Part shown: positions 6,368 to 8,298 of the stretch, in pieces
Layout: the number at the start of each line of letters is the position of its first letter
How positions within the stretch are numbered: position 1 is the stretch's first letter
Assembly: GCA_020850735.1 (NCBI GenBank)
Contig: JADZEE010000009.1
Coordinates: 1 to 64,000 of the forward strand
Source: Gammaproteobacteria bacterium
GTDB lineage: Bacteria > Pseudomonadota > Gammaproteobacteria > JADZEE01
Length of the DNA: 64,000 bases
Direction of reading: 5' to 3'
Translations under genes and position numbers: made by a program
The notes under the pieces: model-generated
Seen by the model: the letters and a program-made list of their open reading frames with translations, nothing else
The model's database searches: none
Told to the model about the DNA's origin: nothing

Positions 6368-7405
6368 TCACGGCAGCAAGGCGAGCGCGGACAATCCGGC
6401 GCTCTCTTCGAGGCCGAACATCAGATTCATGTTCTGCACTGCCTGGCCCGCCGCGCCTTTGACCAAGTTGTCGATCACCGACAGGACAACGACCCGGCCG
6501 GCTCCCGGCGGCCGATGTACCGCGATTCGACAGGTGTTCGAGCCGCGCACCGATCGCGTGTCCGGATGGGAGTCCGCAGGCAGGACATCGACGAAGGGTT
6601 CGGACCGGTAGCGCGCTTCGAACAACGCTTGCAGATCGGTCTCATCCGAACGCAATCGGGCATGCAGCGTCGCATGGATACCGCGCAGCATGGGCACCAG
6701 ATGCGGCACAAAGACGAGATCGACGGCCGCCCCCGCGACGCCCGCGAGTAGCTGGCGGATCTCCGGCAGGTGCCGGTGTCCCCCGACGGCATAGGCTTTG
6801 AAGCTGTCGCTGACCTCACTGAACATGTTGCCGAGCTCCCGGCGCCTGCCAGCGCCGGTCACACCCGACTTGGCGTCCGCGACCAGCGACTCGGGTTGCA
6901 GCAGCCGCGCCTCCACCAGCGGCAGGAATCCGAGCGCGACCGCGGTCGGATAGCAGCCCGGATTGGCGACGATCCGCGCCCCACGGATGCGATCACGGTT
7001 GAGCTCCGGCAGACCGTAGACGGCCTCCGCGAGCAGCTCGGGGCACGCATGGGGCTGCCGATACCAGTGCTCCCACTCAGCCACCTGCCGCAGGCGGAAA
7101 TCCGCCGCCAGATCGATGATGCGCATACCTCGATCGAGCAGCCCCGGCGCCTGCGCCATGGCCGTCCCGTTGGGCGTCGCGAAAAAAACCACGTCGCAAT
7201 CGGGGATGTTGCCGGGATCGGTGAACACGAGCGAACAGCGCCCGCGCAGGTTCGGAAAAGTATCCGCGAGCGCGGTACCCGCTTCAGCACGCGAGGTCAC
7301 GGCGACGATCTCGACGCCCGGGTGCCCCAGCAGCAGGCGCAGCAACTCGACGCCGGTGTAACCGGTGCCACCGACAATTGTCGCTCTAACCATTGGATCC
7401 GCCAT
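6368..7405 (-). CDS. argC: N-acetyl-gamma-glutamyl-phosphate reductase
   Basis: NADPH-dependent reductive dephosphorylation of N-acetylglutamyl phosphate to the semialdehyde, third step of arginine synthesis. The 345-aa protein opens with the dinucleotide-binding [15 protein letters not shown] and has the catalytic cysteine C151 in the ANPGCYPTA motif. Later segments such as [10 protein letters not shown] match the family. The ATG at 7405 is used; ATG four codons later (MVRATIVGG) is equally plausible. It heads the run argC - coiled-coil protein - bactofilin - erpA. Upstream lies a leader with a good promoter and an intrinsic terminator, so readthrough into argC may be controlled. Confidence 0.97.
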
Positions 7406-7444
7406 TGGTCACGTCCGGCTCCGTGCGGTCAGGATGCACGGAGC

Positions 7445-7471
7445 AAAAACAAAAAAGCGGCCGGAGCCGCT
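7445..7471 (-). terminator. Intrinsic terminator/attenuator-like hairpin in the argC leader
   Basis: The minus strand reads AGCGGC-TCCG-GCCGCT followed by TTTTTGTTTTT, a 6-bp G/C stem with a stable tetraloop and a U-rich tail. It lies 40 bp upstream of the argC start and about 60 nt downstream of the start predicted for the minus promoter at 7536-7564. No gene upstream on the minus strand would need it as an ordinary end signal, since the neighbour at 7651 is on the plus strand. It therefore either ends a small RNA or acts as an attenuator for the argC operon. Confidence 0.8.
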
Positions 7472-7535
7472 CTTCAACTGCCTGTCTGTCGTCCGGAAAT
7501 CGCGGCGCGGCCTGCGCGCCTTTCAGGACGGGGCG

Positions 7536-7564
7536 AGGTTAGCCAGCGTCCCCGGAGCTGTCAA
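7536..7564 (-). promoter_or_regulatory. Sigma-70 promoter of the argC leader
   Basis: On the minus strand a perfect -35 TTGACA (7564-7559) is separated by 17 bp from TAACCT (7541-7536). The transcript would begin near 7529 and run through a leader with a second hairpin (GGCGCG-N5-CGCGCC) before the terminator at 7471-7445 and argC at 7405. It lies back to back with the plus-strand promoter at 7595-7622. Confidence 0.75.
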
Positions 7565-7650: not shown

Positions 7651-8298
7651 GTGGACCCGCTCGAAACACTCGCCCTCGTCATGGGTGTCGCCTGGGCCAG
7701 CGGCATCAACCTGTACGCAGCCGTGCTGATGCTCGGGCTGATGAACGCCACTGGCAACGTCGTACTGCCCGAAGACCTGCAGGTGCTGTCGCATCCGGCC
7801 GTACTCGCCGCCGCCGCGATCATGTACTGCGTCGAATTCTTTGCCGACAAGGCGCCGGGGGTCGACAGCGCCTGGGACGCGGTGCATACCTTCATACGAA
7901 TTCCCGCCGGCGCCGTGCTCGCCGCCGCTGCCGTCGGCGAGGTCGATCCCGGTGTGCAGTTCGCAGCGTTCCTGGTCGGCGGCTCCCTGGCCGCCACGAG
8001 CCACGTCACCAAGGCGGGCGGCCGCGTGCTGATCAACACCTCGCCCGAGCCGATCAGCAACTGGCTCGCCTCGCTCGGCGAGGACGCGCTGGTGCTCACC
8101 GGGCTGTGGACGGCACTGGCACACCCGTGGGTCTTCCTGGCATTGCTCATCGTGTTCATCGTGCTGGTCGCCTGGTTGCTGCCGAGAATATGGCGGGCGA
8201 TCAGATTGATCGCTGCCCGTGTCCGCACCTGGTTCGGCCCGCGCGCACACTCGCCCGCAGACGCATCGCGGACGTCGCAGTCCGGAACGCCGACCTGA
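7651..8298 (+). CDS. DUF4126 family membrane protein
   Basis: A 215-aa multi-pass inner-membrane protein of unknown function. The conserved N-terminal segment with ASGINLYAAVLMLGLM is typical of the DUF4126 family. Further hydrophobic segments lie near residues 50-70, 88-103, 105-125 and 165-190, with a conserved loop FFADKAPGVDSAWDAVHTFIR and ATSHVTKAGGR between them. The C-terminal 20 residues are basic and disordered. GTG at 7651 is chosen because GGAG sits 8 bp upstream and the ATG at 7621 falls inside the predicted -10 box. It lies just before hemJ in the same direction (77 bp), so the two may be co-transcribed, but no functional link is known. Confidence 0.85.
   Translation: MDPLETLALVMGVAWASGINLYAAVLMLGLMNATGNVVLPEDLQVLSHPAVLAAAAIMYCVEFFADKAPGVDSAWDAVHTFIRIPAGAVLAAAAVGEVDPGVQFAAFLVGGSLAATSHVTKAGGRVLINTSPEPISNWLASLGEDALVLTGLWTALAHPWVFLALLIVFIVLVAWLLPRIWRAIRLIAARVRTWFGPRAHSPADASRTSQSGTPT

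Follow-up and report, generated by a model that had tools for sequence, protein, structure and literature searches.

The small unit upstream of argC in the window, the 64,000-nucleotide stretch of gammaproteobacterial DNA analysed here, is probably an independent small RNA gene (7564-7446, minus strand) of a family outside Rfam, and not an argC switch; judging from sequence comparison, we put the probability of this reading at about 0.68. A sigma70-type promoter would make an RNA of about 80 nt, whose end would be set by an intrinsic terminator a short way ahead of argC. The family to which it would belong lies near argC/hemJ in many Gammaproteobacteria and, to judge by its build, would most likely work in trans, bound to Hfq and base-pairing with mRNAs. 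Transcription, Hfq binding and mRNA pairing of the family RNA are what we infer from that build.

An earlier note on this DNA described a TTGACA-17-TAACCT promoter, a hairpin and a strong terminator some 40 bp from argC, and every one of these elements is present, on the minus strand. The -35 box, TTGACA, lies at 7559-7564; the -10 box, TAACCT, follows at 7536-7541 after a spacer of 17 nt. The predicted RNA (7446-7529, minus strand) is about 78-84 nt long, its start being placed from the -10 box and its end from the U tract. It would begin with a predicted hairpin, CGUCC...GGACG (about 7490-7530, minus strand), and finish with the terminator (7452-7475), which in DNA letters reads GAAGAGCGGC-TCCG-GCCGCTTTTT (7475-7452, minus strand). 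The terminator core, AGCGGC-UCCG-GCCGCU, occupies 7471-7456, with the U tract after it; as RNA, the hairpin AGCGGC-UCCG-GCCGCUUUUUU stands about 40 bp ahead of argC (40-52 nt, by the start chosen). Positions 7530-7380 fold better than 200 of 200 dinucleotide shuffles (z -3.3), and fold prediction gives the terminator hairpin a formation probability of 0.99 within the full leader. Between terminator and argC, the fold analysis also picked out a perfect 9-bp inverted repeat, GCTCCGTGC-N9-GCACGGAGC (7418-7444, minus strand); this repeat may serve as an operator or form an RNA hairpin close to the start of argC.

The gene downstream (6368-7393, minus strand; the start is more likely 7393, alternatively 7405) carries Pfam semialdehyde dehydrogenase domains, and its closest match in relatives is ArgC. 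Across from it is a DUF4126 gene (about 7651-8298, plus strand; PF13548, 4e-59). As that gene is divergent, the terminator is not required by any upstream gene, just as the earlier note had argued, and the idea that it ends an upstream gene is ruled out in the window. The gene order given there, argC-bactofilin-erpA, needs amending: a DUF6776 gene, which had been left out, sits between argC and bactofilin. An hfq gene is present in the window's genome. At the window edge is a partial bacterial 16S rRNA (Rfam RF00177; 1-441, minus strand).

Taken singly, these elements are unremarkable to a simple pattern scan, which finds three terminator-like sites in 4 kb against 1.8 expected; the window promoter falls short of the scan's -10 threshold. 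As such a scan cannot tell the window's elements from chance, their significance rests on conservation. ArgC homologs were taken from two sets of genomes of the class (36 and 369) and from 80 named records, and 250-420 nt upstream of argC were inspected; all comparison genomes lie outside the window's order. Ten argC-upstream units were recognized by eye at the outset (L009, L010, L044, L049, L110, L113, L115, L119, L125 and L130). In their common build, a TTGAC promoter is followed by about 80-130 nt of transcript with an A-rich stretch (AACAATAACAATA and similar) and often the motif CACCACC; the terminator resembles AAGCGGC-UUCG-GCCGCUU with a U tract, a consensus that the window terminator fits. 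The 5' hairpin of the window is positioned like those in L009, L010 and L044; its sequence is not conserved.

A model of the 3' module of these ten units (R1; promoter excluded, window sequence included) was run against the 369 genomes and gave 41 matches at E <= 0.003, nine of them in training genomes. Among the 32 others, 18 lie on the same strand as argC and 48-430 nt upstream of it; well under one would be expected by chance. With weaker matches and a named record counted in, the search of relatives that the earlier note had suggested thus turned up promoter, short RNA and terminator before argC in 16 families beyond the window's own (f12, f29, f44, f46, f56, f62, f67, f91, f95, f120, f124, f132, f133, f134, f140 and f156). 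Two orders have the unit in every genome: that of G133 (5/5) and that of G043 (4/4). Named members are L044, from Gammaproteobacteria bacterium Centralia_MAG_32, and L049, the latter found by eye only. A second model, R2, was built from 39 units with the window left out. Neither R1 nor R2 contains a promoter, yet TTGAC stands within 135 nt upstream of all 20 new argC-linked matches (2.2 expected from shuffles) and likewise of 11 of the 14 other new matches (1.5 expected); we count this for the small RNA reading. A TANNNT box lies 17-18 nt from TTGAC in most, with the variants TAAGCT, TAACGT, TAGATT and TATGCT. In 42 of 44 units, the terminator is predicted to form with a probability of at least 0.92. 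Two candidates, L174 and L176, were rejected as family units: they lack a promoter and resemble the usual terminators of genes.

Some lineages carry additions of their own. CACCACC lies directly ahead of the terminator in L134, L137, L142, L151, L191 and others, from several families, and is a possible pairing seed. In L145, L152 and L171 (family f67), a TGTGA-N6-TCACA-like site, of the CRP type, is placed exactly between the promoter's -35 and -10. A hairpin in the 5' part of the RNA seems to expose GGGAGGA in L156, L172 and L173 (f65, f34), recalling CsrA-binding or SD-like loops; this was not seen in the window copy.

Whether the window copy is itself a member was judged with models from which it had been left out; the match of R1 to its own genome was set aside as circular, R1 having contained the window sequence. 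The E-values of all three models are rough. Searched against the window's 5-Mb genome, R2 has one match at E <= 10; it falls on the terminator of the window (26.7 bits, E 2.9) and covers the terminator part alone. R3, built from 11 units taken at full length, promoter to U tract, matches the window unit end to end (7565-7445; 42.2 bits, E = 1e-4 in the 5-Mb genome), with the runner-up in that genome at 16.6 bits; a class-wide R3 scan lists the window unit as well. A phylum-wide R2 scan gave 0/299 genomes at E <= 0.01, in a sample of unspecified make-up and with E-values that are weak for this model.

The features that the window shares with the family are a TTGAC -35 with a TANNNT -10 at 17-18 nt (here TTGACA-17-TAACCT, aligned to R3) and, 60-140 nt downstream of the start, a terminator of the form AAGCGGC-N4-GCCGCUU with its U tract. 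The window copy has neither CACCACC nor the A-rich AAY/ARN tract before the terminator (its longest ARN run is 1); what ties it to the family is its promoter, length, position and terminator. The ARN run is missing too in L189 and L190, from the order of G133, so that the tract is frequent and not universal. It is also in this order that the build nearest to the window is found: units of family f134 share its TTGACAGC start and its short gap to argC.

Why a trans-acting RNA of the Hfq type? The combination of a strong promoter of its own, an A-rich AAY/ARN tract in most members, a GC-rich terminator and a U tail makes this the most likely role for the family. ARN runs of three or more triplets occur in 33 of 44 units, with a mean of 3.5 against 2.2 in shuffles; part of this enrichment is circular, as ARN runs are among the things the model selects. 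These runs and the U tail, along with an hfq gene in the window's genome, suggest Hfq binding by the family. The window copy has the U tail and no ARN run; its Hfq dependence is therefore less sure.

The unit is not tied to argC. In one genome (G331), it precedes DUF6776-bactofilin (L144), and the only ArgC-like match in that genome is a distant one (E 1e-23). In two genomes of a single genus (g23; L153 and L155), it lies beside hemJ, with argC on a different contig. In f65 and f34, it is beside a ClC channel gene; in G284, it has ClC on one side and, on the other, a gene 834 nt ahead of argC, an arrangement that ties the ClC and argC contexts together. In g22, it is found between lipB and a VTT-domain gene, and G094 has two closely similar copies (L158 and L175), one 430 nt upstream of argC and the other elsewhere. 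That the unit is kept without argC suggests that it has its own role. Most argC-linked members, moreover, show a TAT(N)AT-like box in the stretch from terminator to argC.

A broader version of the small RNA reading, which we offer tentatively, supposes an old Hfq-type small RNA, class-wide among the non-enteric Gammaproteobacteria and uncatalogued so far. It would sit in the argC/hemJ block across many families, be kept where argC was lost or moved, and have become fused to argC expression by read-through of its terminator in the short-gap lineages, the window's among them.

The principal alternative is a terminated 5' leader: the promoter at 7564-7536 would serve argC, whose expression would be set by regulated read-through of the terminator. 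The layout is the textbook one, a promoter and terminator directly ahead of a biosynthetic gene, on the same strand as argC, with the terminator 40-52 nt before it. The gap to argC is without an obvious promoter in the window and in L140, L166, L168, L169 and L049 (in the last, the gap is 20 nt), so that in these short-gap cases argC could depend on read-through or on an unrecognised promoter; together with the missing ARN tract of the window copy, this keeps a terminated leader in contention for the window itself. The apparatus of attenuation, however, was not found. The window has no leader ORF, and the family units share no conserved one, nor is there a leader peptide with arginine codons; Thr/Ile-like codons in L125/L134 led us to consider a thr-type leader peptide, which was rejected because start codon and reading frame are not common to the others. 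The conserved antiterminator pairing for which the earlier note had proposed a test did not appear: until the 3' arm has been made, the terminator's 5' arm is paired no more than in leaders whose sequence was shuffled, whether in the window (0.53 vs 0.48) or across the family (0.35 vs 0.45). Rfam at the gathering score yields no riboswitch, T-box, leader or catalogued small RNA in the unit, and no meaningful weak match either; no ARG box above 12/18 positions lies upstream of the window's argC. The unit also exists without argC, and in most relatives argC has a -10-like box after the terminator. On these grounds, the small RNA is favoured over attenuation, which we regard as unlikely. The either/or of the earlier note, attenuation or an independent RNA, thereby tilts to its second half: the unit is conserved, is found also away from argC, and usually leaves argC with its own -10-like box.

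Terminators ahead of argC do occur elsewhere for ordinary reasons: in Betaproteobacteria, the terminator follows rpsI, and in Thiocapsa/Thiobaca it follows a coding gene.

Less probable again is a dual-use unit: the small RNA would be independent, with argC transcripts arising from it as well through occasional read-through, in short-gap lineages only. The short-gap members without a clear argC promoter do form a subset that includes the order of G133, the most window-like with its TTGACAGC start; the read-through itself is hypothetical, and weak argC promoters can be missed by eye. That promoter and terminator came together by chance, or form an insulator without RNA function, is very improbable: the simple pattern scan shows no excess over shuffles, but 16 other families have this arrangement at the same position, and it turns up in other contexts as well.

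The small RNA that we favour can be set beside several known systems. Class II Hfq small RNAs, of the ChiX, MgrR and CyaR type, engage Hfq by an ARN motif, at the distal face, and by the U tail. Such RNAs are described as using an ARN tract and U tail for Hfq (PMC6239178). The family resembles them in having its own promoter, a length of 80-110 nt, an ARN tract in most members, and a GC-rich terminator with a U tail; it differs in genomic place and in having no Rfam sequence match, its Hfq binding is presumptive, and the window copy differs further in its want of an ARN tract. Amino-acid operon attenuators of the his, thr and trp leader type likewise have a leader-region terminator directly before a biosynthetic gene, as the window does; unlike them, the unit is without an arginine-codon leader peptide or antiterminator pairing and occurs without argC. 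Spot 42 is a CRP-repressed small RNA. The CRP-type site between -35 and -10 in family f67 recalls that control; the unit has no Rfam similarity to Spot 42, and such a site was seen in f67 alone, not in the window. We know of no report of a small RNA of this type before E. coli argC. Control of argC in E. coli is by ArgR through ARG boxes (PMC3415461); the window unit, too, lies in the regulatory region of argC, in its case with no ARG box above the 12/18 level. The open-access literature searched holds no description of the family RNA.

If it is transcribed, at least 17 families of Gammaproteobacteria would share the unit as a conserved regulatory RNA. To our knowledge, almost no small RNAs have been catalogued in those families. 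Its steady adjacency to argC provides a simple handle for finding the RNA in any genome, and the definition of the family given by the three models suffices for testing expression, or Hfq binding by pull-down, in a cultured relative.
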